From contig JAHBXN010000002.1 in assembly GCA_019636475.1 (NCBI GenBank), positions 62,001-126,000 of the forward strand: 64,000 nucleotides of DNA, given 5' to 3'. Below are positions 102 to 17,291 of this stretch, one piece after another. The notes beneath the pieces were generated by a model, which saw only the letters and a program-made list of their open reading frames with translations, ran no database searches and had not been told where the DNA came from. The DNA comes from Phycisphaerae bacterium (lineage in GTDB: Bacteria; Planctomycetota; Phycisphaerae; UBA1845; UTPLA1). The position numbers and the translations under genes were made by a program. The stretch's first letter is position 1. Each line of letters starts with the position of its first letter.

Positions 102-1436
102 TCACGCCCGCGGATCACACACCGGATCGTGGTAGCGATATTGCTTGCCTTCGTAGTTTCGCAGCACCACGTCATCGCCGTCGCGTCCGATCAGGTAATC
201 CGGCACCAGCGGAATCTTGCCGCCGCCGCCCGGCGCATCGATCACGAAAGTCGGCACGGCATATCCGGTTGTATGCCCGCGGAGCCCTTCGATGATCTCC
301 AATCCCTTTTCAACCGGCGTGCGGAAGTGCTTGCTGCCGCTGATCGGATCGCACTGATAAAGGTAATATGGCCGAACGCGAATCTTCAGCAATCGATGCA
401 CGAGCGACTTCATTGTTTCGACATCGTCATTCACGCCTGCGCTCAGAACGGTCTGGCTGCCGAGGGGAATGCCGGCATCGGCCAATCGACCGCACGCCTG
501 TGCGACTTCCGGCGTGACTTCAACCGGGTGCATGAAGTGAATGCTCATCCAGATTGGGTGAAACTTTCGGAGCATCTTCACCAGCGCGGGCGTGATGCGC
601 TGCGGCAGCACCGCGGGAACCTTGGTGCCGATACGAATAAACTCCAGGTGAGGAATGGCGCGCAATCGGGACAGCAGCCACTCGAGCCGCTCGTCGTTCA
701 TGCTGAGCGGGTCGCCGCCTGACAGCAGAACATCTCGAATTTGCGGATTTGCCGCGATGTAGTCGATGGCAGCCTGATGCTGAGCCTGATTGAAATGGTA
801 TTCGCCGGTCTGACCGACCATTCGGGCGCGCGTGCAGTATCGGCAGTAGGTCGCGCAGAAGTTCGTCACCAGGAACAAAACGCGGTCCGGATAGCGGTGC
901 ACCAGACCGGGGACGGGCATATGGCCATCCTCGGCGAGCGGATCGTCAGCCTCTCCGGGGGATGTCACGAATTCGTCCGTGACGGGAATCATCTGTTTTC
1001 GGGTGGGATCGAGGGGATTGGAAGGGTCGATGAGCGATGCATAGTACGGCGTGATTCCAACGGGCAGGTGCCCGCCAATTCGCTGCATCGATTGGCTTTC
1101 GTCAAAGGAAAGCCGGACGACCCGACCAAGCGATTTCAGATCGCGGATTCGCATGCGGAGTTGCCACCGCCAGTCGTTCCACTCGGCATCGGTCGCGGCC
1201 GGGAATACCCGGCGGCGAAACTCCGCAGCCTGTTCGCCCACGACGAAGTCCGACCGGCGCGATCGCTTGCGCGCCGGTCGAGTGGGCGCGTAGTCGTCCT
1301 TCTCGTGACGACGACGAGTCAGCGGAGGATCGAAGTTGTCGAGGGAATCAATCTGCGGATCGAGAACCTGCAAGGAAAGCGTGCGTCCGCCCGGACCGGG
1401 AGGCTCCGAATCGGAGCCGGTGAGTTGTTCGATCAT
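102..1436 (-). CDS. KamA-family radical SAM protein (lysine 2,3-aminomutase-like)
   Basis: The 444-residue product carries the radical SAM 4Fe-4S motif CATYCRYC with Cys194, Cys198 and Cys201, and the flanking NFCATYCRYCTRARMVG block typical of the lysine 2,3-aminomutase family. LLSGGDPL follows at about 240 and the C-terminal half has the PLP-lid segment PGGGGKIPL expected of KamA. Family members move the alpha-amino group of lysine to the beta position using SAM and PLP, or as EpmB modify elongation factor P; sequence alone does not decide which. The N-terminus of about 100 residues is rich in charged residues and longer than in EpmB. It is followed 36 bases later by a Ddl-like ATP-grasp gene, a pairing that hints at a joint role on an amino acid or peptide substrate rather than simple lysine fermentation. 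No epmA or efp gene is in the window. Confidence 0.85.
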   Translation of the reverse strand: MIEQLTGSDSEPPGPGGRTLSLQVLDPQIDSLDNFDPPLTRRRHEKDDYAPTRPARKRSRRSDFVVGEQAAEFRRRVFPAATDAEWNDWRWQLRMRIRDLKSLGRVVRLSFDESQSMQRIGGHLPVGITPYYASLIDPSNPLDPTRKQMIPVTDEFVTSPGEADDPLAEDGHMPVPGLVHRYPDRVLFLVTNFCATYCRYCTRARMVGQTGEYHFNQAQHQAAIDYIAANPQIRDVLLSGGDPLSMNDERLEWLLSRLRAIPHLEFIRIGTKVPAVLPQRITPALVKMLRKFHPIWMSIHFMHPVEVTPEVAQACGRLADAGIPLGSQTVLSAGVNDDVETMKSLVHRLLKIRVRPYYLYQCDPISGSKHFRTPVEKGLEIIEGLRGHTTGYAVPTFVIDAPGGGGKIPLVPDYLIGRDGDDVVLRNYEGKQYRYHDPVCDPRA

Positions 1437-1653: not shown

Positions 1654-3684
1654 CTATCGATCCGCGACAGCGGACGATGCCCGGCCCCACCCGGACTTGC
1701 CTTCGAGGTGGGACGCAGCCAGCTTGCCCTTGGACTGGGTGACGCCATGTCCCTGGCGAATGACGATCAACTGATCCACCGCGATCTCATCACCAGTCAG
1801 CCCGGTTCCAAATGTCTCCCGGTCGCCACCCGGCCACTGAACCGTCAGCCGATCGATCCGCCTGGTCCCACCCAGCCCGAAAGTCGCCGGCAACTCCACC
1901 TGCGAGGCATAGCTGCGCGTCGGGCCGATCTGCCGTCTCTGAACAAACCCGCCCGCTTCCAATTCAATGACGGCTCCCACCGCGTCGCGGTTTGACCGCT
2001 CGCCAATCAACTTGACCCGGAGCCAATGATGCCCCAAGGCCTGATCATTGCGAACCAGCAACGGCCGACCGCGGGCCTGCGTCAGCAGCACGTCCAAATC
2101 GCCGTCGCCGTCAATATCGGCGTATACGGCCCCTCGGCCGACGATCGGCCTGGCCAGATCTCCCATCGAATCGCCTGGAATCTCAGAGAAACAAGCCTTG
2201 GCCTCCGGCCCGGCGTTCCAGAAAAGCTGCGCGGGTTGCTCGTAGTGCTGGCTGGGCTGGACCTTATTGATCTCTTCTTCAAGATGACCGTTGCATTGCA
2301 GCAGATCCAGGCGACCGTCCAGATCGTAATCAAAGAAGAACAATCCGAATGACAACGCCGCACGTGTCGGTCCGCCGACGCCCTCAGCCACCGCCATGTC
2401 GGTAAACGCCAGCGGATCCTCGCCCGCGACATAAAAAGAGGTCATCTCATTGGCAAAATTCCCGATTCCGACCGCCAGCTTGTTGTCGCACCGGACATCT
2501 GCCGCGTCGATACCCATCGCACCGGTAGAATTTCCCATCGCGTCGAAAGCCAGCCCCGTCTCCGCGCCGATTTCCTGGAATCGATTTCCGCCCAGATTGC
2601 GGAATACGAAATTCTGAACGGTGTCATTCGCGACGATGACATCCATCAAACCATCGTGATCCAGGTCGACGAAACAGAGCCCAAGCGCCTTGCCGACCGG
2701 CACGCCCGTCGCCCGATTCGTAATCTGAAGCCCCCCCGCCTCGGATCGGTCAACAAACGTTCCGTCGCCATTATTCGCATACAGATAGGAATGCGCGCCC
2801 TCGAAGTTCATCGGCACGCCGTAGGCACGTCCAATGCCCGTCAGGCGATAGTCCACTGCAAAATCGATCTCGCGATTCCACTTCACATAGTGACTTACCC
2901 ACAGGTCCAGATCGCCATCGTTATCCGAATCGAAGAACCCGGCGGCGACGCTCCAACCGTCCGCCGGGCCGCCAACACCCGCCGTGGAGGTAATGTCAAT
3001 GAACCTGCCGCCGTCGTTTCGGAAAAGCCGATTTCCACCAACACACGTGACAAAAACGTCGGGATCACCATCGTTGTCGTAATCACCGACAGCGACGCCC
3101 ATCCCCATCATCGCCGCGTCCAGACCCGAGCCGGTCGTGACATTCTCGAAGTGCCCGGTGCCATCGTTTCGATAGAGCCCACTGGTGGTCGCCGGCTTGT
3201 CCGCGGAATCCGCCCACGGCCACTGTGTCCCGTTAACCAGCAGGATGTCCTGATCGCCGTCGCCGTCATAATCGAAGAATGCCGCTCCACCGCCCATCGT
3301 TTCAGGCAGAAGCTTGTCACCGGCCGCGCCATTCTCCCGAATGAAGTCAATTCCGGCGGTCTGTGTGATATCCGTAAAGATGACTCGCGGCGCTTCGGAC
3401 GCCTTCACCACGCGCTGCGGAGCGACAAAGACGTTTTCCTTGGTCGCGGCCGGCGGCGGTTGTCTTCGGATTTGCCAGACGGTCAGCCCGACTGCCGCGC
3501 CGATGGCGATGAAAACCACCAGCGACCAGCGAAACGCCCTTCCGATGATCGCATCATCCTCGGGAACCCACTCTTCCTGATCGACGGGTTGGGCGGAATT
3601 GTTCGACAGCGCGGCCCCTGAGGAATCCGTCTTCATATCATCGACTGTCACGATCGGCTCCCTTGGTTTCCGGCTGGACCCCAT
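1654..3684 (-). CDS. CRTAC1-like protein: N-terminal membrane anchor, FG-GAP/VCBS repeats, ASPIC/UnbV domain
   Basis: The 676-residue protein has a single predicted membrane helix at about residues 50-70, then a series of FG-GAP/VCBS beta-propeller blades with Asp-rich calcium-binding loops (DYDGDGDQDILL, DYDNDGDPDVF, DSDNDGDLDLW, DLDHDGLMDV, DYDLDGRLDLL, DIDGDGDLDVLL). The end is an ASPIC/UnbV domain (HHWLRVKLIGERSNRDAVGA, about 555-625). It is expected to be anchored in the cytoplasmic membrane with the propeller outside. Function of this family is unknown; the calcium-binding propeller suggests binding or adhesion. The start used has GGAAC a few bases upstream but overlaps the upstream cytochrome gene by 47 bases; a second ATG at 3636 lies one base after the cytochrome stop and would drop 16 residues. 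Either way the two genes are tightly coupled. Confidence 0.88.
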   Translation of the reverse strand: MGSSRKPREPIVTVDDMKTDSSGAALSNNSAQPVDQEEWVPEDDAIIGRAFRWSLVVFIAIGAAVGLTVWQIRRQPPPAATKENVFVAPQRVVKASEAPRVIFTDITQTAGIDFIRENGAAGDKLLPETMGGGAAFFDYDGDGDQDILLVNGTQWPWADSADKPATTSGLYRNDGTGHFENVTTGSGLDAAMMGMGVAVGDYDNDGDPDVFVTCVGGNRLFRNDGGRFIDITSTAGVGGPADGWSVAAGFFDSDNDGDLDLWVSHYVKWNREIDFAVDYRLTGIGRAYGVPMNFEGAHSYLYANNGDGTFVDRSEAGGLQITNRATGVPVGKALGLCFVDLDHDGLMDVIVANDTVQNFVFRNLGGNRFQEIGAETGLAFDAMGNSTGAMGIDAADVRCDNKLAVGIGNFANEMTSFYVAGEDPLAFTDMAVAEGVGGPTRAALSFGLFFFDYDLDGRLDLLQCNGHLEEEINKVQPSQHYEQPAQLFWNAGPEAKACFSEIPGDSMGDLARPIVGRGAVYADIDGDGDLDVLLTQARGRPLLVRNDQALGHHWLRVKLIGERSNRDAVGAVIELEAGGFVQRRQIGPTRSYASQVELPATFGLGGTRRIDRLTVQWPGGDRETFGTGLTGDEIAVDQLIVIRQGHGVTQSKGKLAASHLEGKSGWGRASSAVADR

Positions 3685-6595
3685 TTGTTCCGTTCTTCAC
3701 CCGGGAGGCCTCGTCCGGGCTGCGTCGATCTTCACGATGAATCGCCGCGCCGACGACGTCACCCTCGGGCCACGCTGCCGGCAGTTCGTATGCGCCCACC
3801 CGCTGCAAATCGTACAGGACGATGGCTTCGGCGGCGTGATTGGCAGCCGGGTATCGGATTCTCGCGGCGGCGATGGCGCGGTCCATGGCATTATCGTCCG
3901 TCTTGTAGCGTGCGTGCTCGGCCCGATGGTGGCGCGCCTTTTCGGCGTCTCCGAGATCCGCGTAGATCAATCCCAGGTTGTAATGGGCCGTCATGTTTTC
4001 CGGGTCGAACGTCAGCGACTTTTGAAAGAGTGAGCGAGCCTCGTTAAGGAAAGCGAGTTTTGCCTCGCGCCGGGCCGGGCCACGCTCCTGCAAACCTCGT
4101 TCAAAAAGCGTTTGCGCATACTCGTTGAGAACCGTGTAGTCCTGCGAGAAATCAAAACCCCGCTTTCGACATTCCTCGGTGTCCTTCATCTCGACGACGT
4201 TTCGGAAGTTCGCGATCGCATCATCCAGGTGGCCGTTCTGTTTGTTCACAAGCCCGGTGAACCACTCGACCGACCACGGCGGCGCCGGAGGCTGATGAGC
4301 GGCGGCCTCTCGCAGCGCGACGACGGCGTCATCCAGCCGGCCTTCCTTGATGTATACACGGGCCCGATTCAAGGCGCCATCCGGCCGCCCAAGCATCCCG
4401 ACCTGCGCGAACGCACTTTCGGCCTGACGTAGTTCACCCTTGTTGGACCCCACTTCGCCCTTCCGAAAGAGCGCAATGCCGTAGTCATTCCATCGCTGCC
4501 AAGGCTCGATCTTCGATGGCGGGTTCTCGATTTGGGTCATGACGCCCTCGACCGGGAAGATCATCGTGTCCGCCGCGAGGGTGAGGATCGGCAAGTCGTT
4601 CCGGACAAACTTCCTGCCCTGAAACTGCTTCGTATAGAGCGTATCGAACTTGCGGTACTGAAGCTTCACGTCAACCGCGACCGGAGCACTGACGTCCTCC
4701 GGCACTTTCAGCAGGTAGTGCACCACATCGGCCGCACCCGGCGGAATCTGATGGCTGTAGAGCGGCAGGAAGATATCCTCGGCGTTGCGACGGTCGATGC
4801 GATATCCGTTGCGGTCTATCACAAACGCATTCACGAAGTGCGACCACGGATCCACCTCTCCGTCAGCCGCCATGCCGCCACTTCGCCCGATGACAACATC
4901 CCCGCTCTTCACGGTGATATCAAGCCAGACTTCGTTGGAGTCCGCCGTTCCCTGGGTAAAAATGTGGCCCATCTTGACGGTGCGGATGATGGTTTCGATC
5001 AGATAGGACTGGCCGCGCTTCAAAGTCGGCACCTGCGGGCGCAGCGGGGCGTACAATTCGCCGTCGATCGTGCCGCCCTCCTTCACGCCGAAGATGTCCA
5101 CGCGCATCACACCTTCGTTGAACTTCCGGTGCTTTTCGTTGACCCACGGTTCCATGCCGGTGAGGTAGGGAATGGCTGTGTTGGCCGAGGGAAACTGATG
5201 ATCGTGCACCTTCATAACGCCGTCGCGATCAAAGTCCTTCGCGCCGAAATCCGCCGATGCCATGGTGGGCATGTGACATTCGTTGCAATTGTCCACGGCC
5301 TTGGGCGGGTAATAGAAGCTGACGATGCCGTGCCCGGATACGCCGCTGAGGTGATAGGCGTCATAGTGATTCTGCCCGCGCAACCACTTGTAGGCGTTCA
5401 ACTCAGGCGGCAGGTGCACCTTATGACACGAGCCGCAGAACTCCGGCGACTTGTGGAGCGGCTTGAGGAAGGTCTTCTTGTGGAATTCCGGCTTGGCCCG
5501 CACGAGTTGCCGATTGACCCACTGCAGGACGGAATTGTCGCTGAACGCAAACGGGTAGTGCAGCGGTTCTTCGATTGTGTAGTCGCCGTTTCCGCGCGGG
5601 CTGTTGATGTTCGTGATGGCATGGCACACCGTGCAGGTGATGCCGGCCTGCGCCGACGGGTCGTTGGCGAGGTCGTAATTCGGATCGTCGAAATGCGGTT
5701 TGTCGAATTCGCCGCTGAAAAACGGCACGGGGTCGTGACACGTTGCGCAGAAACGGGAACCTTTGACGTTTCCGTCGCGAGCGAACATGGCCTTTCGCGT
5801 GTTCAAAACGGAGAATAGGTATGCCGGATTGTTGAAAGAACTGAGGCGATGGACGCTCGCCGTCCAGGTCTTGTGGATGTCTGCATGGCACTGGAGGCAG
5901 TATTGATCATTGGTCATGGCCTCCTTCGGGATGAATTTGCCGGTTGCGGTTCTGGAGAGCGCCGGCAGGAAGTACTCCGTGCCGGTTTTTGGTCCGACCT
6001 CGTTCCATTTTCGCGGATCCTGTGCGTGGAGAAAGAGCATGACCATCGCGAAGCCGCCGGCGACTCCCGCCCAGCTGATGCCGACTTTCCACTTGATCTT
6101 GCGACCCGCCAGCCGGTGCAGGATAAACAGCCAGACGACAATGAGCGGCGAGATCACATGCAGCCAGTAGGCGGTTGACCGAATGGTCGGATTGCGAACA
6201 TCGATCAGGTTTTCGATTCGCGTCAGGACAATACCCGAACCCAGCAGGAGCAGAGTGACGGCAAAAAGTGCATAGCCTGCGCGGACCGCGCGCCGATTCG
6301 GTCGATTGTGGGCGTTGTAGATATGGGCAATCCCGAAAATCACAACCGGCAGCACGATGAGAAATCCGAGTATGAGATGCCCAAGGAACATGAACTGATA
6401 GAAGTAGTCCTGGTAGGTGACCCCCGTAGCCCACTCGACCAGGGTCACGCTGCCGAGATAGACCGAGTTGACGCCGATCAGCGCAACCAGAGCAAAGATA
6501 CCTGTCAACAGCAGCTTCAACCTCGGACCGACTGCGGGGAGGTATTTCTTCTTTTTCGCAGGTGTGCGGAGCGGCGAGCCGGATTGGGCAGACAT
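3638..6595 (-). CDS. Membrane-bound pentaheme cytochrome c with C-terminal TPR repeats
   Basis: The 985-residue protein begins with an N-terminal membrane block of about four or five helices (about residues 25-190) resembling a diheme b-type membrane unit. Five CXXCH heme c sites follow at Cys233, 283, 321, 387 and 437 (CLQCH, CATCH, CTVCH, CGSCH, CNECH), as in the cytochrome c554/c-prime group. A beta-rich middle region and TPR repeats occupy about residues 680-920 (for example NMTAHYNLGLIYADLGD). It should move electrons between the membrane and the periplasm; donor and acceptor are unknown. The start ATG at 6595 is preferred because GGAG lies 9 bases upstream; an in-frame ATG at 6622 would add 9 residues without a good site. 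The gene runs directly into the CRTAC1-like gene, so the two products probably act together. Confidence 0.87.
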   Translation of the reverse strand: MSAQSGSPLRTPAKKKKYLPAVGPRLKLLLTGIFALVALIGVNSVYLGSVTLVEWATGVTYQDYFYQFMFLGHLILGFLIVLPVVIFGIAHIYNAHNRPNRRAVRAGYALFAVTLLLLGSGIVLTRIENLIDVRNPTIRSTAYWLHVISPLIVVWLFILHRLAGRKIKWKVGISWAGVAGGFAMVMLFLHAQDPRKWNEVGPKTGTEYFLPALSRTATGKFIPKEAMTNDQYCLQCHADIHKTWTASVHRLSSFNNPAYLFSVLNTRKAMFARDGNVKGSRFCATCHDPVPFFSGEFDKPHFDDPNYDLANDPSAQAGITCTVCHAITNINSPRGNGDYTIEEPLHYPFAFSDNSVLQWVNRQLVRAKPEFHKKTFLKPLHKSPEFCGSCHKVHLPPELNAYKWLRGQNHYDAYHLSGVSGHGIVSFYYPPKAVDNCNECHMPTMASADFGAKDFDRDGVMKVHDHQFPSANTAIPYLTGMEPWVNEKHRKFNEGVMRVDIFGVKEGGTIDGELYAPLRPQVPTLKRGQSYLIETIIRTVKMGHIFTQGTADSNEVWLDITVKSGDVVIGRSGGMAADGEVDPWSHFVNAFVIDRNGYRIDRRNAEDIFLPLYSHQIPPGAADVVHYLLKVPEDVSAPVAVDVKLQYRKFDTLYTKQFQGRKFVRNDLPILTLAADTMIFPVEGVMTQIENPPSKIEPWQRWNDYGIALFRKGEVGSNKGELRQAESAFAQVGMLGRPDGALNRARVYIKEGRLDDAVVALREAAAHQPPAPPWSVEWFTGLVNKQNGHLDDAIANFRNVVEMKDTEECRKRGFDFSQDYTVLNEYAQTLFERGLQERGPARREAKLAFLNEARSLFQKSLTFDPENMTAHYNLGLIYADLGDAEKARHHRAEHARYKTDDNAMDRAIAAARIRYPAANHAAEAIVLYDLQRVGAYELPAAWPEGDVVGAAIHREDRRSPDEASRVKNGTNGVQPETKGADRDSR

Positions 6596-6802
6596 GTGAA
6601 AACACTCCATTCCCGTGGGCAATTGACATGGTCAATCACGCCGCCGACAGATGCCGGATGTGGAGAGCGGGTTTGTGACTGACAATCTCAGAACAAAGGC
6701 GCAATAGTGGATTCTACCACAGTGTTCGAATGACTTTCCACCCTTGGTGGCCGTCGGAACCGCTCCTGACATATGAGAAGACGTTGCGCGGCGGCCGACC
6801 GG

Positions 6803-6832
6803 TTGCCGCACTACCAAGATTCACCGTAGAAT
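6803..6832 (+). promoter_or_regulatory. Candidate promoter for the succinate dehydrogenase flavoprotein gene
   Basis: TTGCCG (6803-6808) is followed after 18 bases by TAGAAT (6827-6832), giving a leader of about 37 bases before the start at 6876. The rest of the 280-base gap between this gene and the divergent cytochrome gene holds no gene I can support. The same TAGAAT -10 also appears before tRNA-Arg and just before the RNase P RNA. Confidence 0.35.
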
Positions 6833-6875
6833 CCGGCCAGCGTAAGGACTTAGGCCCTCAAGGAACCTCTCAGTA

Positions 6876-8834
6876 ATGGCAAACCAACGTGTCGCGATGA
6901 TCGGTGGCGGGCTGGCTGGACTGGCCGGCGCGATGAAACTGGCCGAACTCGGAATCGGCGTCGACCTCGTCAGCATGGTACCCGTCAAGCGGTCCCATAG
7001 CGTGTGCGCTCAGGGCGGTATCAACAGCGTAAACGCCACGACCCGCTCACAGGGAGACAGCGAGCAACTCCACCTGGACGATACCGTCTATGGCGGAGAC
7101 TTTCTGAACAATCAGCCGCCGGTCAAGGAAATGGCGGACTGGGGCCCGAAAGTCATCGATCTTCTTGACCGACTCGGCGTGCCGTTCAACCGAACGTCGG
7201 AGGGCCATCTGGACCGACGGCGATTCGGCGGCACGCTCTTCAAGCGAACGGCATTCGCCGGGGCGACAACCGGCCAGCAACTGCTCTACGCACTCGATGA
7301 GCAGTGCCGGCGCTGGGAGGCCGAAGGCCTCATCAACCTGTACGAGTTTCACGAGTTTCTGGGCAGCATTGTCGACGACAACGGAGTTTGTCGCGGCTGT
7401 GTCGTTCAGGACATGTTCTCCATGGAGATCAAGGCGCTGCGTGCGGACGCCGTCGTAATGGCGACGGGCGGCTGCGGACTGATCTTCGGCAAGAGCACGA
7501 TGTCGATGATCTGCACTGGTGGAGCCAACGCCCGCGTCTATCGCGAAGGCGCCAAGTACGCCAACGGTGAATTCATCCAGGTTCACCCCACGGCGATCCC
7601 CGGCGCCGACAAGCTTAGACTGATGAGCGAGAGCGCCCGCGGAGAAGGCGGCCGCGTCTGGGTACCGCGCACCCCTCAGGACCCGCGCGACCCGAATTCG
7701 ATCCCCGAAAATGAGCGGTATTACTTCCTCGAAGAGCGATACCCGACCTACGGCAACCTCGTGCCGCGCGACATCGCCACACGCGAGATCTTCGATGTCT
7801 GCGCCAACCACGGCCTCAGTGTCGAGAAAGGACAGTTCTGCGTATATCTCGACCTCACGATGCTGCCAGCATCAACCCACCATAAGCTCGAGGGCATCCT
7901 CGCCATCTACGAGAAGTTCGGCGGCGGAAACCCGCGCACCACGCCGATGAAGATCTTCCCGGCGGTTCACTATTCCATGGGCGGAATCTGGGTTGACTAC
8001 GAGAAGAACAATCAGACCGGCGGGCTCGTCATCGGTTCTCCGCGGAATCAATCAACCAACATACCCGGCCTCTACGCAATCGGAGAGGCGGACTATCAGT
8101 ATCATGGAGCGAACCGGCTCGGAGCCAATTCGCTCCTGTCGTGCATCTTCGCGGGGCTGATCCTGGGCCCGTCGCTGCAGAATTACCTCAAATCACTGAA
8201 ACAGTCCTCCGCCGACCTGCCGGCCGGTCTCTTCGATCGCGCAGTCCGAAAGCACCAGGACCAGATGGACCAGTTGATCGCCCGCGACGGCAAGGAGAAT
8301 GCATACCGGTTGCATGATGAACTGGGCAACACGATGACTGCGAACTGTACGGTTGTTCGCCACAACGAAAAGATCAGACAGACGATCAGCAGGATCGACG
8401 AGTTGACCGAACGGTATCAGCGGGCGCCACTCGCTGATTCGGGTCGCTGGACCAACCAGAATCTCTCTTTCACCCGGGCGCTGGGAGACATGCTCGTCCT
8501 GGCGAAGGTGATCGCGATGGGCGCGATGCGCCGCGACGAATGCCGCGGCGCGCACTACAAACCGGAATTCGAAATCGCCGGACTCGATCCCAATTCCAAA
8601 GAAGATCTGACCACCCAGGCACGCCGCTGGTGCGAAGTTTTCAGGCAGCGGAACGAAAAGTGGCTCAAGACCACGATCGCATCGCACACTGCCGAGGGTC
8701 CCCGATTGACCGACGAACCCGTCGACACATCCCTGATCCCACCGCGACCACGAACCTACGGACTGAAAGGCGCGGAAGAAATCATGCGCATCTGGAAGAC
8801 GGAATTTTCCGCCCCGGCGGCGGCCCGCGCATAA
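6876..8834 (+). CDS. sdhA: Succinate dehydrogenase / fumarate reductase flavoprotein subunit
   Basis: The 652-residue protein starts with the FAD-binding Rossmann motif IGGGLAGLAG. It has the covalent flavin-attachment histidine in RSHSVCAQGG (His41), the active-site stretch FIQVHPTAIPG, and the late motif YHGANRLGANSLLSC. It oxidises succinate to fumarate (or the reverse) in the TCA cycle and should sit on the cytoplasmic face of the membrane, handing electrons to an iron-sulfur subunit. Its form matches the SdhA of sdhCAB operons with a cytochrome b558 subunit (Bacillus/Bacteroidetes/Planctomycetes type). AAGGA lies about 11 bases before the ATG. Unusually, neither sdhB nor sdhC is next to it: upstream is a divergent cytochrome gene and downstream a convergent ABC permease. 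Confidence 0.93.
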   Translation: MANQRVAMIGGGLAGLAGAMKLAELGIGVDLVSMVPVKRSHSVCAQGGINSVNATTRSQGDSEQLHLDDTVYGGDFLNNQPPVKEMADWGPKVIDLLDRLGVPFNRTSEGHLDRRRFGGTLFKRTAFAGATTGQQLLYALDEQCRRWEAEGLINLYEFHEFLGSIVDDNGVCRGCVVQDMFSMEIKALRADAVVMATGGCGLIFGKSTMSMICTGGANARVYREGAKYANGEFIQVHPTAIPGADKLRLMSESARGEGGRVWVPRTPQDPRDPNSIPENERYYFLEERYPTYGNLVPRDIATREIFDVCANHGLSVEKGQFCVYLDLTMLPASTHHKLEGILAIYEKFGGGNPRTTPMKIFPAVHYSMGGIWVDYEKNNQTGGLVIGSPRNQSTNIPGLYAIGEADYQYHGANRLGANSLLSCIFAGLILGPSLQNYLKSLKQSSADLPAGLFDRAVRKHQDQMDQLIARDGKENAYRLHDELGNTMTANCTVVRHNEKIRQTISRIDELTERYQRAPLADSGRWTNQNLSFTRALGDMLVLAKVIAMGAMRRDECRGAHYKPEFEIAGLDPNSKEDLTTQARRWCEVFRQRNEKWLKTTIASHTAEGPRLTDEPVDTSLIPPRPRTYGLKGAEEIMRIWKTEFSAPAAARA

Positions 8835-8914
8835 GGTACCGGCGATGGATGCTTGTCGGCCGGGGTCGAAGTCGCCGGTCACTCGGCACGAGGGATCGGT
8901 TGCGCGCAGCGCAA

Positions 8915-10141
8915 TCAGACCCCCGGCTTCGCTGCGAGGCGGCGATTGAGGACCATCGACGCCAGTAGCATGAATCCGCTTGAAATGCCGAACAGGACTG
9001 CCAGCGGCAGGGCAATGCCCTGAAAGCCTTCGCCGCGAATAAGTGCCATGATTCCGTCATAGGCCCACCCATTGATCGTCAGAAGGCCCAGCTTCTGCAT
9101 GAAGAGCGGCATGACGAATCGCGGCACCATGCTACCGCCGATCGCGCTCATCGCCAGAATCACGATCGACCCCAGCGCGTCGAGCTGCTCTCCCGTTCGA
9201 CAGACCGACGCCATCAACATTCCCAGCGCGGTCGCGGAAAAACACGTTGCGAGCGTGATCGCGAACAGACCGGCCGTCACGTCCCAGATTGCGACGCCAA
9301 AGACCAGCCATGCGTAGAGATACATCGCATAGCATTGGGCCATTGAAACGACCAGGCAGGTCAGAAGCTGGCCCGAAACGATCTGATAAGGCCGGGCGGG
9401 CGAGGCAAGCAGGCGACGAATCTCGCCACGGCGCAACGACTCCAGCATCCCCCGCGCCGCACCCGCCGCACCGAAGAGAATGAACATCGGAACGATCGCC
9501 GCAAGGAATGAATTCTTCGCGGCATTGGGCATGCTACTCTTCACAACGCCGATGGGGTGAACCGCGATCAACCGCTTCGGCTTCGATCCGCCCCCCGCAT
9601 CGTCGCTGCGGTCCATGCCGCCCAGTCCCATCGCGCCGCCCAGCCGCTCAAACAATGCCCGACCGGCCGCCATTTGCACCATTCCCGCGACGATCTCGGC
9701 CTCCATCGGCTGCGATTCGTCAAAAATCAGATCGACGCCATGATGATTCGCGCCATCAAGGATCGTCGGCGATTCGTGATAATCCCGCGGAATCACCAGC
9801 GCGACGCGGAACAAACCCTCGTGAAGGATCGCATTCCGCGCCGTCGTTTCAGTCAAAAGCGGGCGACTCTCGTCTTCACCTTCGTTCAATATCACCTTCA
9901 CGCTATTCGCCCGCAGCATCTCGATCAGCCGCGTACTGGCCGCTGACTGGTCGAGATCAATCACTGCCACGCGAAACGGCCGGCCCGCCGCGTCGGAGAA
10001 AATCGACGTGAAAATCGTGTAAAGCGTGATGCCGGGAATCAACATGAAAATCGCCGTCGCGCGACTGCGCAGCAGCACGCGAAGCTGTGTTGAACTGAGT
10101 AGATAAATGATCTTCATGCTTTGCATTGCCGTCTCGGCCAT
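8915..10141 (-). CDS. ABC-2 type transporter permease
   Basis: The 408-residue protein has one N-terminal helix (about 27-47), a large extracytoplasmic domain (about 50-205) and five to six helices in the second half, the ABC2_membrane_3 / YhhJ layout. It should form the membrane part of an exporter together with the ATPase encoded just upstream on the same strand (gap of 32 bases). A substrate (drug, lipid or polysaccharide) cannot be named. Start choice is weak: ATGs at 10141, 10126 and 10117 are in frame and none has a strong ribosome binding site. It ends convergently with the succinate dehydrogenase gene. Confidence 0.85.
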   Translation of the reverse strand: MAETAMQSMKIIYLLSSTQLRVLLRSRATAIFMLIPGITLYTIFTSIFSDAAGRPFRVAVIDLDQSAASTRLIEMLRANSVKVILNEGEDESRPLLTETTARNAILHEGLFRVALVIPRDYHESPTILDGANHHGVDLIFDESQPMEAEIVAGMVQMAAGRALFERLGGAMGLGGMDRSDDAGGGSKPKRLIAVHPIGVVKSSMPNAAKNSFLAAIVPMFILFGAAGAARGMLESLRRGEIRRLLASPARPYQIVSGQLLTCLVVSMAQCYAMYLYAWLVFGVAIWDVTAGLFAITLATCFSATALGMLMASVCRTGEQLDALGSIVILAMSAIGGSMVPRFVMPLFMQKLGLLTINGWAYDGIMALIRGEGFQGIALPLAVLFGISSGFMLLASMVLNRRLAAKPGV

Positions 10142-10173
10142 CGGCCCGGGCGGCCGGATCCGCCATCACTCCG

Positions 10174-11106
10174 CTAGTCTCTCAGGGCGTGTCCCGTCAG
10201 CTCAAGAAAAACCGTTTCCAGGTTCGGTTCCTTCACGCCGATGTTTTTAACCCGCAGGCCCAGATCATTCGCCGCATGCACGATGTCGATCAATCCAAAT
10301 CGGCCATCCACCAGCGTCAACCGAACAACCGCATCATGACCATTCCACGAGACAGGCCCCAGCCGATCAGACAGGCGCTTCGCGACATCGGCCGACAGGG
10401 ACTCCACCTCCATCACCACCTCGCGTCTGGCCTTGGCGTGGGAGATCAGTTCAGCCGGCGAACCCACCGCGATGATCTTGCCGCGGTCAATAATGGCCGT
10501 TCGGCGGCAAAGCCGTTGGGCCTCTTCCATGTAGTGTGTGGTGTAGAGAACGGCTCGCCCCTCTTCCGCCAGTCTCTCCACGATATCAAAAATGTAAGCC
10601 CTCGCATGCGGGTCGACGCCGACCGTCGGCTCGTCCATCAACACCACTGCCGGCTTGTGAACCAGCGCGCACGCGATATTAAGCCTCCGCTTCATGCCCC
10701 CCGAGAAACCTGCGACGGGTTCGTCGCTCCGATCACCCAGGCCAACGGCCTCCACCGTCTCAATGACCCGCCGGGAAAGCTCTCCGCCCGACAGGCCATA
10801 CAGCCTGCCGACGAACGCAAGATTCTCAAGGGCGGTCAATTGCTCATTCAGTGCGATCTCCTGCGGGACATACCCGATTCGGTACTTGTACTCCCTGTGA
10901 CGGGAAGCAATGCCGCCCAACAGAATGATCTCGCCCTCATCCGGCTGCAGAATCGTTGCGATCATGTCGATCGTCGTCGACTTGCCGGCGCCATTCGGCC
11001 CGAGCAGGCCGAATATCTCGCCCGCCTCAATCTCAAGACTGATGCCGTCGACGGCCTTCAGCCCGTCATACGATTTGCAGAGACTTCGAAGTTCCAGAAC
11101 GGCCAA
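10174..11106 (-). CDS. ABC transporter ATP-binding protein (DrrA/CcmA type)
   Basis: The 310-residue ATPase has Walker A GPNGAGKST (36-44), the signature FSGGM (134-138) followed by KRR, Walker B VVLMDE (154-159), and the switch region YTTHYMEEAQ. The roughly 80-residue C-terminal extension after about 230 is the DUF4162-like part of DrrA-type exporters. It should hydrolyse ATP to drive the ABC-2 permease encoded 32 bases downstream. Two-gene operon. Confidence 0.93.
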   Translation of the reverse strand: MAVLELRSLCKSYDGLKAVDGISLEIEAGEIFGLLGPNGAGKSTTIDMIATILQPDEGEIILLGGIASRHREYKYRIGYVPQEIALNEQLTALENLAFVGRLYGLSGGELSRRVIETVEAVGLGDRSDEPVAGFSGGMKRRLNIACALVHKPAVVLMDEPTVGVDPHARAYIFDIVERLAEEGRAVLYTTHYMEEAQRLCRRTAIIDRGKIIAVGSPAELISHAKARREVVMEVESLSADVAKRLSDRLGPVSWNGHDAVVRLTLVDGRFGLIDIVHAANDLGLRVKNIGVKEPNLETVFLELTGHALRD

Positions 11107-11320
11107 GCGATCGCTCCTCGCGAATGCGAAAGCGAGGATTCTAACATCAGCCCCCGAAATCGGCAGTCAGGAAATATGGGTCCTCCGCTTCAGTCAGTGC
11201 CGACACGGCCGTACCTGCGCCACCCAGCCCCCACAGCCATATCTCCTTCCGGCGTGTCTTTGCGCGACTGACAGGGCACGGTCTCGGCAATTTCTTCGAC
11301 TGCCGCTAGCATTCCTGTTC

Positions 11321-13051
11321 ATGCCGACCGATGCGATTGCCAGTGAACTGAACAGCGTTCGCACCCGATTTGATGCCGCAGGGCGAGCCCGTCGTCGCGA
11401 GTTGATTCAACACGCAGCCGGAGTGAAATCGGCCGATCCACAGGCCCTGGCGGCCTACCACGACGTGCTGCTCTTCATGGCCGCCCATCCAGACGATCGC
11501 GCCATGCTGAATCACATCGAAGCGGAGTTGGCCCGCATCGGCGCTCAGATCGACGATCTGTCTCCCACAGCGCGGCGCAAATTGAATGACACCGGGATGG
11601 TCGGAACGCTGACCACGCATGCCTTCTCAATGGACCTGGCACGCTGGCTGTGCGACCGCTGCGGCAATGATGTCGATATCGATATGAAGAACGCCGAGGC
11701 CATGGAACGGCTCGAGGCTTTTCTGCAGTTGCTCGCGGCGCCGGCCGAGGCCGACGGAATCCTCTGCAAGCGGCTTGACACGCGCGGCTGGCTCGACGCG
11801 GCCCGCGGCGGGACCGATTCCGACTGTTCCTCGCTGCGGTGGCTGCTCGGAAGATTCGATGCGTTGCGCGCGCCACCGGCGCTGGTGGATCGAGAATTCG
11901 AATCGCTCGACCTCGAACTGACTTGGCGTCATGCCTCGCTGCCCATGTCGCGCACCGGAGCGAGATTCCCGTCTCGCCCGATCCACTTTCAAAAGCGAGC
12001 CCCCGTCCGAAGCGTCAACGCCCGGGAAATCATCCTGTGCCCGCTCAGTCCGGCTCGACCGCTACCGGTCGGCGAGGCAACGCCGCTGCTCGACGCGTGC
12101 AGGGCAGCCCTTTCGTCCCGACGGCGCGAGACCGATCCGCTGACCTACGCTGATCCGCACGATGTGACCCTCCACCGCCTCGAAAATGGCATTGATGTTG
12201 CGGTATTCGGCATGACACCCCAACGCCGACTGCCGGTCGAAAGCTACTTCGGTTACGTCGCCGCAAGGAATCGTGTTCCGTGCGCCTACGGTGGCGGCTG
12301 GGTGCTGGGCCATCGCTGCGAGATCGGCGTCAATATCTTCGACGAGTTCCGCGGTGGCGAATCAGCGTTGCTATTCGCTCAAATCATGCGTGTCTATCGC
12401 ACAATGTTCAGAATCCGCCGATTTCTCGTGGACCCCTACCAGTTCGGCGCGGGTAACGAAGAAGCGATACGCAGCGGCGCCTTCTGGTTTTACTATCGAC
12501 TGGGCTTCCGCCCCGTCTCCGCCCGCGTCCGCCAACTGGCCGACGACGAAGCCCGGCGAGTGCGCGAGCAAACCGGATACCGATCGCCGCCCGCGACGCT
12601 GCGTCGCCTCGCCCGAGATCGAGTCCGGCTCGATCTGGCTGAACAATCCGCTCCGGCCGCATCGGGCCTGCTCAACACGGACGAAGTCCCCGCCCCCCTC
12701 GGCGATTTCGACCTTGCCGAACTGGGGATCGCGGTCACGACGCGGATCGGCCGGCGATTCTCAGGAGACACGACCGTCGCGACCGATTGGTCCCTCAGCC
12801 ACCTTCGCAGGGTGCTTGGCGTTAAACCGTCGAAAAGCTGGTCGGCCAATGAGACATTCGCGTTCTCGAATTGGTCGCCGCTCGTCGCGATGATCGGCGA
12901 TCTGGATCGGTGGACGGCGTCCGAAAAACGGTCCCTCATTGACGTGATGCGGGCGAAGGGCGGCCGCCGCGAGAGCCGATTTGCTCGGCTCCTCCGGCAG
13001 CATCCCCGCCTGATTGAAGCATTCTCCGCTATTTCCCGACGGCAGGAATAA
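11321..13051 (+). CDS. Large conserved protein of unknown function with a GNAT-like segment
   Basis: The 576-residue protein is cytoplasmic by appearance, with no signal peptide or membrane helix. The first 200 residues are helical and leucine-rich. The segment around residues 340-400 has GNEEAIRSGAFWFYYRLGFR, close to motif B of GNAT acyltransferases, preceded by GGESALLFAQIMRVYRTMF. I do not recognise a named family, and the substrate is unknown. The open frame extends further upstream across the divergent ABC gene, so the first ATG clear of that gene (11321) was taken; it has no clear ribosome binding site and the true start is uncertain. Codon use is like its neighbours. Confidence 0.7.
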   Translation: MPTDAIASELNSVRTRFDAAGRARRRELIQHAAGVKSADPQALAAYHDVLLFMAAHPDDRAMLNHIEAELARIGAQIDDLSPTARRKLNDTGMVGTLTTHAFSMDLARWLCDRCGNDVDIDMKNAEAMERLEAFLQLLAAPAEADGILCKRLDTRGWLDAARGGTDSDCSSLRWLLGRFDALRAPPALVDREFESLDLELTWRHASLPMSRTGARFPSRPIHFQKRAPVRSVNAREIILCPLSPARPLPVGEATPLLDACRAALSSRRRETDPLTYADPHDVTLHRLENGIDVAVFGMTPQRRLPVESYFGYVAARNRVPCAYGGGWVLGHRCEIGVNIFDEFRGGESALLFAQIMRVYRTMFRIRRFLVDPYQFGAGNEEAIRSGAFWFYYRLGFRPVSARVRQLADDEARRVREQTGYRSPPATLRRLARDRVRLDLAEQSAPAASGLLNTDEVPAPLGDFDLAELGIAVTTRIGRRFSGDTTVATDWSLSHLRRVLGVKPSKSWSANETFAFSNWSPLVAMIGDLDRWTASEKRSLIDVMRAKGGRRESRFARLLRQHPRLIEAFSAISRRQE

Positions 13052-13276
13052 ACGCCACACCCGATTCTAAACCGGCAATAGCCTCCGCCCGCTTGCGTTA
13101 AGCTTCACGAGACACGCCGTCGGCTGAGAACGGCGATGCCATCGCCGGTGCAGATTCTCAATCAAGGCAGGCGAATTGCATTAGAATAACCAGTAAACAT
13201 TCGTCGAACCCTTCCGTCGACGCAAAGTGGGTCAGATCGCCGATCGATCCTGACGTAAATTCCGGAGGCGAATCCA

Positions 13277-14899
13277 ATGCACATTTCTCTCATCGCCCTC
13301 TTTCAACTGACGCTCGTACTGAGCGCGGTGGCGACGGAGCCGCCCGACGAATCCAGGCCGGAACGTCCAACCGCTTCAACCCGCACAAGCGATCCGCTCA
13401 AGGCCTCCCGTGTCTGGGAGCGAAAGCACGCGTCGCATCTGCTCCGCCGCGCCGGCTTCGGCGGGACGCCTGAACAGGTGCTCTACCTTAAGCAGCTCGG
13501 ACGCGAGCGTGCCGTCGAATATCTCGTTAATTACCGCGAAATCGATGCCGAGTTGCCGGAACCGGACGTCAGCGAATACGAGCCGCGCCGGCCGCGCGAT
13601 GTCATGTCCATGTCCGAAGAAGAGCGGAAGAAGACGTTCGCGGAGCGCCGCCGGGACGACCGCGTCCTGTTTGAAAACGTCGTCGGCTGGTGGGTGGATA
13701 TGATGGTGTCGTCACCGCGTCCCCTTGAGGAAAAGCTGACGCTGTTCTGGCATGGGCATCTCACCAGCGGCTATCGCGAAGTGAAATCGGCTCACGCCAT
13801 GCTCAAGCAGAATCGCCTTCTGCGTCACCATGCATCGGGCAACTTCCGCACACTGCTTCTCGATATCACCGAAGACCCCGCGATGGTGCTCTACCTCAAT
13901 ACCCAGCAGAACCGAAAGGGAATGCCCAACGAAAACTACGCCCGCGAATTGCTGGAACTCTTCACCATGGGTACCGGCAACTACACGGAGCAGGACATCA
14001 AGGAGGCCGCGCGGGCCTTCACCGGCTATACAATCGACCCCCGAACTGGCCAGGTCGTCTTCCGACCGCGCCTGCACGACGACGGCGAAAAAACTTTCCT
14101 CGGCCGCACCGGCGCACACGAACCGGCCGACATCATCGATATCATTCTCGAACAGCCCGCGACCGCGAAGTTCATCGCCCGAAAGATGTGGCGGTTCTTT
14201 GCATACGATGATCCCGAGGACGACATCATCGACGCCCTGGCAAAGATCCTTCGAGAGAATCAGTACGAATTCAAGCCCATGCTGCGGGCCATGTTCAAGA
14301 GCGACGCGTTCTATTCGAAGCGGGCGATGTTCACTCAGATCAAAAGCCCCACCGAACTGCTCGTCGGTTGCATGAGGTCGCTGGAAATCCCCGCGATGGA
14401 TACCGCCACACTGAACATCGGCCTTCGCCTCATGGGACAGTCGCTCATGCAGCCGCCGAACGTCAAGGGCTGGGACGGTCAGGAGGCGTGGATCACCGCC
14501 AGCACTCTCTTTAATCGCTACAACGTCCTTGGCGGCGTGATCGTCGGAAATGACAACGACCGGGCACGCCGGCAGCGGATGCGAATGATCGAAGCCCGCC
14601 GTGCGACCACCGGCCGCGAAGGCAATTCCGCGGACGATGACGAGGGGCCCCGCCTCCAGCCGGCCTATGATCCATTGCCTGCGATCAGAAAATTCAAGCT
14701 GACAAACCCCGAGCGCATCGTCGATCACTATGTTGATCGGCTGCTGCAGCGTCCGTTGCCGCGCGATCGCAAGCAGGTGCTCATCGATGCCATCCGCCCG
14801 TCATACATTACAAAAAATCCCGAAGCGGCCCAGAACGTCGAACTGATTCGAGGCCTTGTGCACATGATCGTAAGCATGCCGGAGTACCAGTTGGAGTAG
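13277..14899 (+). CDS. DUF1800 family secreted protein
   Basis: The 540-residue protein has an N-terminal signal sequence (about residues 1-22) and then the DUF1800 core, with HLLRRAGFGGTPEQV near residue 55, LTLFWHGHLTSG, NENYARELLELFTMG and a final segment close to MIVSMPEYQLE. The family is common in Planctomycetes, nearly always next to a DUF1501 gene, and its function is unknown. GGAGG stands about 9 bases before the ATG. The DUF1501 gene follows after 68 bases, so the two form an operon. Confidence 0.92.
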   Translation: MHISLIALFQLTLVLSAVATEPPDESRPERPTASTRTSDPLKASRVWERKHASHLLRRAGFGGTPEQVLYLKQLGRERAVEYLVNYREIDAELPEPDVSEYEPRRPRDVMSMSEEERKKTFAERRRDDRVLFENVVGWWVDMMVSSPRPLEEKLTLFWHGHLTSGYREVKSAHAMLKQNRLLRHHASGNFRTLLLDITEDPAMVLYLNTQQNRKGMPNENYARELLELFTMGTGNYTEQDIKEAARAFTGYTIDPRTGQVVFRPRLHDDGEKTFLGRTGAHEPADIIDIILEQPATAKFIARKMWRFFAYDDPEDDIIDALAKILRENQYEFKPMLRAMFKSDAFYSKRAMFTQIKSPTELLVGCMRSLEIPAMDTATLNIGLRLMGQSLMQPPNVKGWDGQEAWITASTLFNRYNVLGGVIVGNDNDRARRQRMRMIEARRATTGREGNSADDDEGPRLQPAYDPLPAIRKFKLTNPERIVDHYVDRLLQRPLPRDRKQVLIDAIRPSYITKNPEAAQNVELIRGLVHMIVSMPEYQLE

Positions 14900-14967
14900 G
14901 ACAACCCGGCATGTCGACCTGTGCGATGAGACCACTGTCATGAATCGAATCCGAAAGGCAATGAACC

Positions 14968-16305
14968 ATGTCTGACGAACTTTTCTTCAGCCGGCGCGAA
15001 ATGCTCCGACGCGGCGCGTCCCTTTTGTCCGCCGCCGCGACGGTCCCCCTGTTTCTCGACCGGACCGCCCTGGCCTTGTCCGGGCCATCGGATTCACCCG
15101 GGCCGAAGCGCAAAACCCGGAATGACGCTTCCCGAATTCTCGTCGTCGTCCAACTGGCCGGCGGCAATGACGGCCTGAACACCGTCGTGCCGATCGGCAA
15201 CGATCGCTACTATCAATCGCGCCCGTCGCTCGCCATCAGGAAGGACGACGCGCTGTCAATCAACGCGGACCTCGCATTTCCGAAATCCGCTGAAGGCCTC
15301 AAGAGCCTGTACGACGATGGCCTTCTCGCTGTCGTTCAGGGCGTCGGCTATCCGAACCCGAATCGATCGCACTTCGTTTCGACGGACATCTGGTCCACCG
15401 CCGATCCCGAAGAGCGAATTCATAACGGCTGGCTGGGGCGCTACTTCGATTGCGAATGCAAAGGCAGTGCGCGGCCCGATCCGAAATCAGGCATCGCGCT
15501 GACGCAGGAATCACCGCTTGCGATGCAGGGGGCCCGATTCTCACCCGTGAGCTTCAATAGCCCGGAAGAACTGTCATGGCGCGGCCCGGCGGCGCACGGT
15601 CGTGGCATGGCGGCATTCAACAAGCTCAACCAATCGAAGCGAAAAAACACCAGAAAGACCGAGGCGCCGCTCGATCAAGCCGGCGCGCTGGCCTACCTCG
15701 AACGAATGGCCATGGATGCCCGCGCATCCGCTGAGGAGATTCAGCGTGCCACCGGCATCGACGGCGCCAACAGTCGAAACCAGGGCTTCCGCTTTCGATT
15801 CCAGAATCGTGGACGTGGCGGGGAACTCGGCCAGAAACTTGAAATGGTCAAGCGCATGATCGCCGCGGGACTGGACGCCAGGGTCTACTATGTCTCTATG
15901 GGAGGCTTCGACACGCACGCGCAACAGGCCGGAAGACACCAGACACTCATAACCCAGTTGGGCGAGGCGCTGAAGGATTTCACGCTGAGCCTCAAGGCCG
16001 ATGGCCTGCTCGATCGTGTCACGATCATGACGTTTTCCGAGTTTGGCCGGCGCGTCGCGGAGAATGGCTCGCAGGGAACGGACCACGGCGCAGCCGCCCC
16101 GCTATTCATCGTGGGTTCATCGGTACGACCCGGCTTGCATGGCGAACATCCCAGTCTCGAGCCTGCCGACCTGGACGCCGGCGACTTGAAGTGGCAGGTG
16201 GATTTTCGTTCGATCTACACTGCGGTGTTGTCAGACTGGCTCAAGGCCGACGCAGCGAAGGTCCTGGGCGGGGAATACAGCAAGGCTGCGTTGTTCCGCG
16301 TGTGA
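14968..16305 (+). CDS. DUF1501 family protein with Tat-like signal peptide
   Basis: The 445-residue protein begins with SRREMLRRGASLLSAAATVP, a twin-arginine-type signal. The mature part has the family hallmarks VVVQLAGGNDGLNTVVP, GVGYPNPNRSHF, the MGGFDTHAQQ block and the TFSEFGRRVAENGSQGTDHG block. DUF1501 proteins belong to the alkaline phosphatase/sulfatase superfamily; the enzymatic substrate is unknown. Export as a folded protein through Tat fits with the tatA gene at 47.5 kb. The start is fixed because an ATG 8 bases upstream runs straight into a stop. It is second in an operon with the DUF1800 gene. Confidence 0.93.
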   Translation: MSDELFFSRREMLRRGASLLSAAATVPLFLDRTALALSGPSDSPGPKRKTRNDASRILVVVQLAGGNDGLNTVVPIGNDRYYQSRPSLAIRKDDALSINADLAFPKSAEGLKSLYDDGLLAVVQGVGYPNPNRSHFVSTDIWSTADPEERIHNGWLGRYFDCECKGSARPDPKSGIALTQESPLAMQGARFSPVSFNSPEELSWRGPAAHGRGMAAFNKLNQSKRKNTRKTEAPLDQAGALAYLERMAMDARASAEEIQRATGIDGANSRNQGFRFRFQNRGRGGELGQKLEMVKRMIAAGLDARVYYVSMGGFDTHAQQAGRHQTLITQLGEALKDFTLSLKADGLLDRVTIMTFSEFGRRVAENGSQGTDHGAAAPLFIVGSSVRPGLHGEHPSLEPADLDAGDLKWQVDFRSIYTAVLSDWLKADAAKVLGGEYSKAALFRV

Positions 16306-16331
16306 GCCGGCCACGGGCCTGTGCGACCGGG

Positions 16332-17171
16332 TCATTCCGATTCCGTGTCCAGAGACGCTTCGCTCAGCGAACGCACCAGTTCGGCGTGCATCGTCGGCGT
16401 GCCCGCGACCATCGGCAGATCTTCGCCGCCATACCGCGCGACATCCATCGGCCAGAGCGGACCACCGGCAGGATCGCTCAGGCGCCCGCCGGCCTCACTG
16501 ACCAGCAGCGCCCCGGCCGCAAGGTCCCACAGTTTGCATTCCGGCGCATACGCTCCATCGGAAAAACCGGCCGCCAGCCAGGCGAAATGAATGCAGATCG
16601 AGCCCAGATTCCGAAACAGATAAGTTTGCATCCATCTCGCGATGACCGGTGGCGGCGTTCTTCGACGGAATGACGAGATGAATAAAACGGAATCCGATGA
16701 GTACGCGCGATCCTCAATCCGCAGCGGGTCGCCCTCGCGAAATGCCCCGCCACCGCGCAAAGCTGAATAAAGACGTCCGGTTGATGCGTCGAAAATCGCG
16801 GCGACCAGCGGCTCGCCACGATGCATAAGTGCCACTGATGTGGCATACATCGGAATGCCGCGAGCGAAATTCCGCGTCCCGTCGATGGGGTCGATGACCC
16901 AGCAGAATTCCGACGCCGCAATCGCCGTATGCCGAACCGGGTCAGCCACGGTTTCCTCGACAAGAACCGCATGTCCCGGAAATTGCGCGGCGATTACATC
17001 CAGCATCGCCGCCTGTACGAGATGATCCGCCTCGGTCACGGGCGTGTCGTCGTCCTTCCGGGTGACCGAAACCCGCCCCAGCAGCCCGGAAGCGGTCCGC
17101 GCGCCAAGCCGGGCCAGTTCGCACGCCATTTCCATGTATTCCGCATTCCCGCCAGATCCCCGTCGCATCAT
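16332..17171 (-). CDS. Inositol monophosphatase family phosphatase
   Basis: The 279-residue protein shows the metal-binding motifs of the family: EET near residue 72, WVIDPIDGTRNF near 95 and LWDLAAGALLVSEAGG near 220. These bind the Mg2+ ions used to hydrolyse a phosphomonoester. Candidates are inositol-1-phosphate, histidinol phosphate (HisN type) or 3'-phosphoadenosine 5'-phosphate (CysQ type); the sequence does not settle this. The MMRR start at 17171 was chosen because the frame upstream has no family similarity. It converges with the DUF1501 gene (26-base gap) and lies 120 bases after the TrkA-N gene. Confidence 0.87.
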   Translation of the reverse strand: MMRRGSGGNAEYMEMACELARLGARTASGLLGRVSVTRKDDDTPVTEADHLVQAAMLDVIAAQFPGHAVLVEETVADPVRHTAIAASEFCWVIDPIDGTRNFARGIPMYATSVALMHRGEPLVAAIFDASTGRLYSALRGGGAFREGDPLRIEDRAYSSDSVLFISSFRRRTPPPVIARWMQTYLFRNLGSICIHFAWLAAGFSDGAYAPECKLWDLAAGALLVSEAGGRLSDPAGGPLWPMDVARYGGEDLPMVAGTPTMHAELVRSLSEASLDTESE

Positions 17172-17291
17172 GCCGTGATTCTCACAAGCCGATGCCGATC
17201 GAACAAGCCAAAGTTTTTTTTCGATCAAATCCGGCGGATATCTCAGGACATGGATCCAGACAAACCGATCACCAATCCCGCAACGGACCAA

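Follow-up and report, generated by a model that had tools for sequence, protein, structure and literature searches.

A cytochrome with five heme c motifs and a CRTAC1-type calcium propeller protein as putative partners in a quinol-linked electron-transfer module of Planctomycetota and other bacteria

What could connect a multiheme membrane cytochrome with a calcium-binding propeller protein? The question is raised by two consecutive genes in a 64-kb stretch of DNA from a Phycisphaerae bacterium (assembly GCA_019636475.1, contig JAHBXN010000002.1, positions 62,001 to 126,000; hereafter, the window, to which all coordinates refer). The second of these genes encodes a protein of the CRTAC1/ASPIC-UnbV family (hereafter CRTAC1), and we know of no function for any bacterial member of this family. 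Domain analysis and genome comparison are best compatible, with moderate confidence, with the two proteins being subunits of an inner-membrane module for electron transfer between quinol and the periplasm, similar in layout to CbcL, in which CRTAC1 is the membrane-anchored partner or a docking platform. The two genes are:

3638..6595, minus strand: cytochrome gene, 985 aa counted from the ATG at 6595; five-helix, four-histidine membrane domain, pentaheme c domain, Ig-like domain and TPR tail
1654..3684, minus strand: CRTAC1-type gene, 676 aa from the ATG at 3684; single membrane anchor, FG-GAP beta-propeller and UnbV/ASPIC domain

The association of the two genes is conserved far beyond this genome. 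The orthologous cytochrome (about 49% identity or more) was identified in 46 of 294 Planctomycetota genomes, all 46 of which also encode the orthologous CRTAC1 (hypergeometric 7e-46, a value that ignores genome relatedness). Their coordinates place the two genes side by side in 43 of the 46 genomes; in G251, they are about 3.3 kb apart, with other sequence in between, and in G024 and G087 both orthologues are kept though unlinked. Genome collections contain at least 571 relatives of the cytochrome. The comparison also covered 80 named loci, which come from Planctomycetota, Acidobacteriota, Verrucomicrobiota and metagenome-assembled genomes (MAGs) that bear the labels of other phyla. CRTAC1 is encoded directly after the cytochrome in 67 of these, in two cases across gaps of 0.5 and 2 kb, and 7 or 8 of the remaining loci end at contig ends; these neighborhoods come partly from incomplete MAGs, and the taxonomic labels may be wrong. 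Among the five true exceptions to adjacency, four (L047, L075, L077 and L086) retain a CRTAC1 orthologue elsewhere in the genome. The first-pass annotation, made from the sequence of the window, had named conserved adjacency in planctomycete genomes as a check on the pair and rare co-occurrence as the outcome that would speak against it; adjacency was found, and co-occurrence is anything but rare. Given the conserved adjacency, the complete co-occurrence and the retention of both genes in most unlinked cases, functional coupling of the cytochrome and CRTAC1 is strongly supported by the genome comparison.

The cytochrome open reading frame (ORF) spans 3638-6622 (minus strand) and ends with the TGA at 3640-3638; the likeliest start is the ATG at 6595, which is preceded by GGAG, with the TTG at 6622 as the alternative. 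Assignment of the CRTAC1 start codon is uncertain among three candidates: ATG 3684 (47-nt overlap with the cytochrome gene), GTG 3651 (14-nt overlap, with GGGAG before it) and ATG 3636 (one base past the cytochrome stop). The frames were thus correctly described at first pass as overlapping or one-base-spaced, but the equal production of the two proteins deduced from this arrangement does not follow, given that overlap implies no 1:1 output. Rather, the overlap suggests translational coupling; ATGA overlaps are common at the corresponding junctions in the loci of relatives. No natural fusion of the two genes was found in 110 loci (0/110), with at most one in-frame stop between them. A 1656-aa CRTAC1 ORF in G085 was considered as a possible fusion and ruled out, as it contains no heme motif.

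The cytochrome gene encodes the following elements, from the N-terminus to the C-terminus:

6023..6526, minus strand: five-helix membrane domain, residues 24-191, delineated by hydropathy, AF2 helices and conservation
4526..5950, minus strand: pentaheme and Ig-like module, residues 216-690, with the fold of the Thermochromatium tepidum penta-heme cytochrome c552 (5ze8)
5885..5899, minus strand: CXXCH heme site 1, CLQCH
5735..5749, minus strand: CXXCH heme site 2, CATCH
5621..5635, minus strand: CXXCH heme site 3, CTVCH
5423..5437, minus strand: CXXCH heme site 4, CGSCH
5318..5416, minus strand: histidine-rich loop between hemes 4 and 5, with H394, H410 and H422; near-invariant motif RGQNHYD...SGVSGHG
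5273..5287, minus strand: CXXCH heme site 5, CNECH
3776..4525, minus strand: C-terminal TPR domain, residues 691-940

Hydropathy and AF2 helices indicate five transmembrane (TM) helices in the N-terminal part of the cytochrome. In the predicted topology, the positively charged loops face inward and the last 790 residues lie on the outer side of the membrane, so that the heme, Ig-like and TPR domains are predicted to reside in the periplasm. The cytosolic loops are basic and conserved (NRPNRRAVR, HRLAGRKIKW). His73 and His91 on TM2 and His146 and His160 on TM4 are invariant in all orthologues (40/40), and these four histidines, like the five heme motifs, are kept in 11 of 12 relatives with about 30% identity. 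Two pairs of invariant histidines on membrane helices are the hallmark of the diheme membrane cytochromes b as a functional class, and the four residues are candidate axial ligands of two b hemes. Judging from their positions in the helices, His73 and His146 would be close to the periplasmic face and His91 and His160 close to the cytoplasmic one; histidine pairs near both membrane faces are typical of membrane diheme b cytochromes of the bc1 and FdnI/NarI types. At first pass, the cytochrome had been recognized as a membrane protein, which stands, but the five-helix domain with its four invariant histidines was overlooked, and so was the c552-like Ig-like domain located between the hemes and the TPR tail.

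The cytochrome contains exactly five CXXCH motifs, at residues 233, 283, 321, 387 and 437 (ATG numbering). All orthologues whose ORF is intact likewise have five heme motifs (with CX4CH in place of the fifth in two), so the motifs are not a chance occurrence; the five sites and the TPR tail (Pfam TPR_2, 2.8e-11) had both been read correctly from the sequence. Together with the two predicted b hemes, these sites bring the probable total to seven hemes, 2 b and 5 c. Structure comparison with VIA aligns residues 223-680 of the cytochrome model to 5ze8 (Z 14.9, root mean square deviation 3.9, 343 residues), which is the top match and the sole cytochrome among the matches shown; the same entry is retrieved by a profile of the heme and Ig-like domain (E 6e-5). 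When the full-length cytochrome served as the Foldseek query, the matches were mostly TPR proteins, and the c552 match came from the second look with VIA.

The T. tepidum low-potential c552 has relatives in other bacteria: ExtKL, Gsu2801 and the cable-bacteria cytochromes sPHC and lPHC have been united in one pentaheme (PHC) family, characterized by an Ig-like domain and by structural homology to c552 (PMC11976967). The cytochrome described here shares with c552, Geobacter ExtKL, Gsu2801 and sPHC/lPHC the succession of five c-type heme motifs and an Ig-like domain with the c552 fold; the sequence match is weak but repeated, and the fold aligns over the 343 residues. Accordingly classified on its model, the periplasmic half of the cytochrome belongs to the PHC fold group. 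It is not a member of ExtKL proper: the NCBIfam ExtKL model (NF040886) matches 18 of 21 members far under the cut-off, the heme and Ig-like domain scoring 23.5 bits against a curated cut-off of 250 bits. Compared with the PHC proteins as described in the parts of PMC11976967 consulted, the five-TM, four-histidine domain, the TPR tail and co-encoding with CRTAC1 are features of the present cytochrome only. One relative (L135, 3564-5672) is shorter, with 703 aa, no TPR, four CXXCH motifs and CX4CH at the first heme site, and has CRTAC1 directly downstream.

In CRTAC1-paired orthologues, about eight additional histidines are conserved (346, 381, 394, 410, 422, 464, 489 and 626), three of them in the near-invariant loop between hemes 4 and 5. 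In relatives with about 30% identity, whose heme ligands are retained, almost all of these residues are exchanged, and the loop histidines give way to other residues in nearly all of those relatives. The subfamily-specific histidines around hemes 4 and 5 could possibly form an extra metal or catalytic site. On this basis, the protein might be a catalytic periplasmic reductase, in which these histidines form a metal or substrate site and quinol drives reduction of nitrogen, sulfur or metal species, with no relay. We consider such a reductase unlikely, given that five CXXCH motifs with ample histidines suggest bis-histidine relay hemes and that some of the extra histidines may be merely distal heme ligands.

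The second gene encodes the following elements, again in the N-terminal to C-terminal order:

3523..3576, minus strand: acidic cytosolic juxtamembrane motif, CRTAC1 residues 37-54, EEWVPEDDAIIGRAFRWS; specific to cytochrome-linked CRTAC1s
3463..3522, minus strand: membrane helix, the predicted inner-membrane anchor, with the propeller periplasmic according to the predicted topology
1804..1983, minus strand: UnbV_ASPIC domain (Pfam, 1.2e-15)

The combination of FG-GAP repeats (Pfam FG-GAP_3, 4.6e-33) with the UnbV_ASPIC domain places the protein in the CRTAC1/ASPIC-UnbV family, and a Foldseek search detects murine CRTAC1 (9etn) with E 8.8e-31. Six calcium loops of the DxDxDG type and one N-terminal membrane helix bear out the initial description of a membrane-anchored calcium propeller. 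The murine and bacterial proteins share the FG-GAP propeller and the UnbV/ASPIC domain, whereas the N-terminal membrane anchor and the DDxxIGxAFRWS motif distinguish the bacterial subfamily, in which Pfam detects no EGF-like domain. This motif, the core of the consensus E-x-V-x-x-D-D-x-x-I-G-x-A-F-R-W-S, lies just before the membrane helix. The strict pattern is found in 49 of 60 orthologous CRTAC1s, most of the unlinked ones included, and in none of 25 paralogues. The motif is more conserved (0.64) than the membrane helix (0.45) or the linker (0.36), and a plain anchor would not need such a conserved element. The basic, conserved loops on the cytosolic side of the cytochrome make an electrostatic contact with the acidic motif plausible. 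The physical complex regarded as probable at first pass is still a prediction, one that is favored by the subfamily-specific motif.

The two proteins might instead be mere operon neighbors that act separately, CRTAC1 being an adhesion or envelope protein. CRTAC1/ASPIC-UnbV proteins are present in many copies in these genomes, and some paralogues occur without cytochromes in the same genome, which is what separate action would predict, as is the cytochrome core without an adjacent CRTAC1 in one clade of distant relatives (see below). We nevertheless regard this explanation as improbable in view of the retention of both genes where they are unlinked, their perfect co-occurrence in the sample and the specificity of the juxtamembrane motif for orthologous CRTAC1s.

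The relatives with about 30% identity retain the seven-heme core (four histidines and five heme motifs). In one clade of these (e.g., L121, L123, L124, L126, L127 and L129), CRTAC1 is also encoded next door, and in another (L130-L133), the seven-heme core and TPR come with no adjacent CRTAC1. From this distribution, CRTAC1 is apparently not needed for the electron-transfer core in every lineage and looks like an accessory to the core, outside its heme chain. Several observations weigh against the proposed two-subunit module. Besides the L130-L133 clade, these include L083/G297, the sole exception without any CRTAC1 orthologue (the genome may be incomplete); the lack of any match above the cut-off between the membrane domain and known b-type families in Pfam and PDB; and the distance of 18 between His73 and His91, which is longer than the histidine spacing of 13-14 in bc1-type helices. 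Sub-threshold Pfam matches to DUF7139 in 7 of 21 members were not trusted as a family assignment for the membrane domain.

In the ~30% relatives with CRTAC1 next door, the partner mostly has a lipobox-like N-terminus (e.g., LLVSCGPA, LFFVGCSGDD; seen in L123, L124, L126, L127 and L129) and no plain membrane helix. Such a lipoprotein-like partner could reach the outer membrane, and the T. tepidum c552 has been suggested as a relative of archaeal cytochrome nanowires (PMC11976967). Both points speak for the proposal, made at first pass, of an extracellular electron transfer unit with a multiheme conduit and a propeller that docks minerals or substrates outside the cell. On balance, this proposal is not supported and appears highly improbable. 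In the paired subfamily, CRTAC1 is predicted to be anchored in the inner membrane with a periplasmic propeller; there is no conserved porin or secreted cytochrome neighbor, and no other multiheme ORF within the window. The MtrB/PioB porin (PF11854) that defines MtrAB-type outer-membrane conduits was found neither in this genome nor in any of the 46 that encode the pair, although 0/46 would arise by chance in 25% of cases and is weak evidence alone.

The inner-membrane module, by comparison, accommodates the observed domain content, invariant heme ligands, conserved pairing and motif specificity. We infer that the N-terminal five-helix domain holds two b hemes and that electrons move between it and the quinone pool, with quinol oxidation as the most likely direction. 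Electrons would then pass to the fused periplasmic PHC-type domain with its five c hemes and on to some periplasmic acceptor or catalytic site. CRTAC1 would be anchored beside the cytochrome, its acidic juxtamembrane motif packing against the basic cytosolic loops, and its calcium-stabilized propeller would sit on or near the periplasmic TPR domain as a docking or stabilizing platform for the acceptor. The closest analogy is CbcL of Geobacter sulfurreducens, an inner-membrane quinone oxidoreductase with 6 TM helices and 2 b and 9 c hemes (PMC9129911). CbcL and, by prediction, the present cytochrome combine in one chain a b-type membrane domain for two hemes and a multiheme c domain in the periplasm. 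The cytochrome differs from the CbcL type in having five TM helices, five CXXCH motifs for PHC-type c hemes, TPR and a CRTAC1 partner; the likeness is one of layout.

TPR and CRTAC1 are also found together in other arrangements. In locus L039, a cytochrome-CRTAC1 pair is flanked by genes for CRTAC1 and a TPR protein and by one ORF that joins TPR and CRTAC1 (13739-17233); the whole region spans 5472-17233. A similar TPR/CRTAC1 cluster without a cytochrome is present on another contig of the same genome as the window (C4, about 83-89 kb; L003, L006 and L009). Given that TPR and CRTAC1 recur together, and also fused, a docking function of the TPR tail is plausible.

The genes that flank the pair in the window are outside the cytochrome-CRTAC1 unit:

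6876-8834, plus strand: succinate dehydrogenase flavoprotein gene, divergent, upstream of the cytochrome gene
102-1436, minus strand: lysine 2,3-aminomutase-like gene, downstream of the CRTAC1 gene

No third conserved neighbor was detected across the loci; carbon-nitrogen hydrolase, transpeptidase, arginine repressor and GH10 enzyme genes recur only locally. Outside Planctomycetota, the cytochrome is less prevalent, with about 11 genomes among 149 in Acidobacteriota and 2 among 145 in Verrucomicrobiota when centre genomes are counted. Its distribution in the class of the window is patchy (6 of 120 genomes), and four genomes from the family of the window lack it, a pattern suggestive of loss or horizontal gain. 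In the cytochrome tree, Verrucomicrobiota, Pirellulaceae, Phycisphaerae and Acidobacteriota mostly form separate clades.

In the open-access literature searched, the domain combination of the cytochrome was not found described; neither was the cytochrome-CRTAC1 pair, the only connection between CRTAC1 and multiheme cytochromes being relatives of hydrazine synthase. In relatives of anammox bacteria, a CRTAC1-family gene lies among genes for homologues of hydrazine synthase subunits (PMC12758564), a similarity that is limited to the neighborhood of a CRTAC1-family gene, the partner proteins being different. A more specific version of the model, which we put forward as tentative and rather doubtful, is an undescribed respiratory complex present in at least three phyla, in which a single-chain, quinol-oxidizing 2b+5c PHC-type cytochrome is held by CRTAC1 via a membrane and TPR interface and has a histidine-rich catalytic site between hemes 4 and 5. 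For the CRTAC1/ASPIC-UnbV family, these findings provide one subfamily with a specific, testable partner, the membrane cytochrome, and a candidate contact motif. They further suggest that the respiratory chains of common environmental bacteria, among them cultured Pirellulaceae (e.g., Rhodopirellula and Stieleria), have a quinone-linked branch that has so far been missed.
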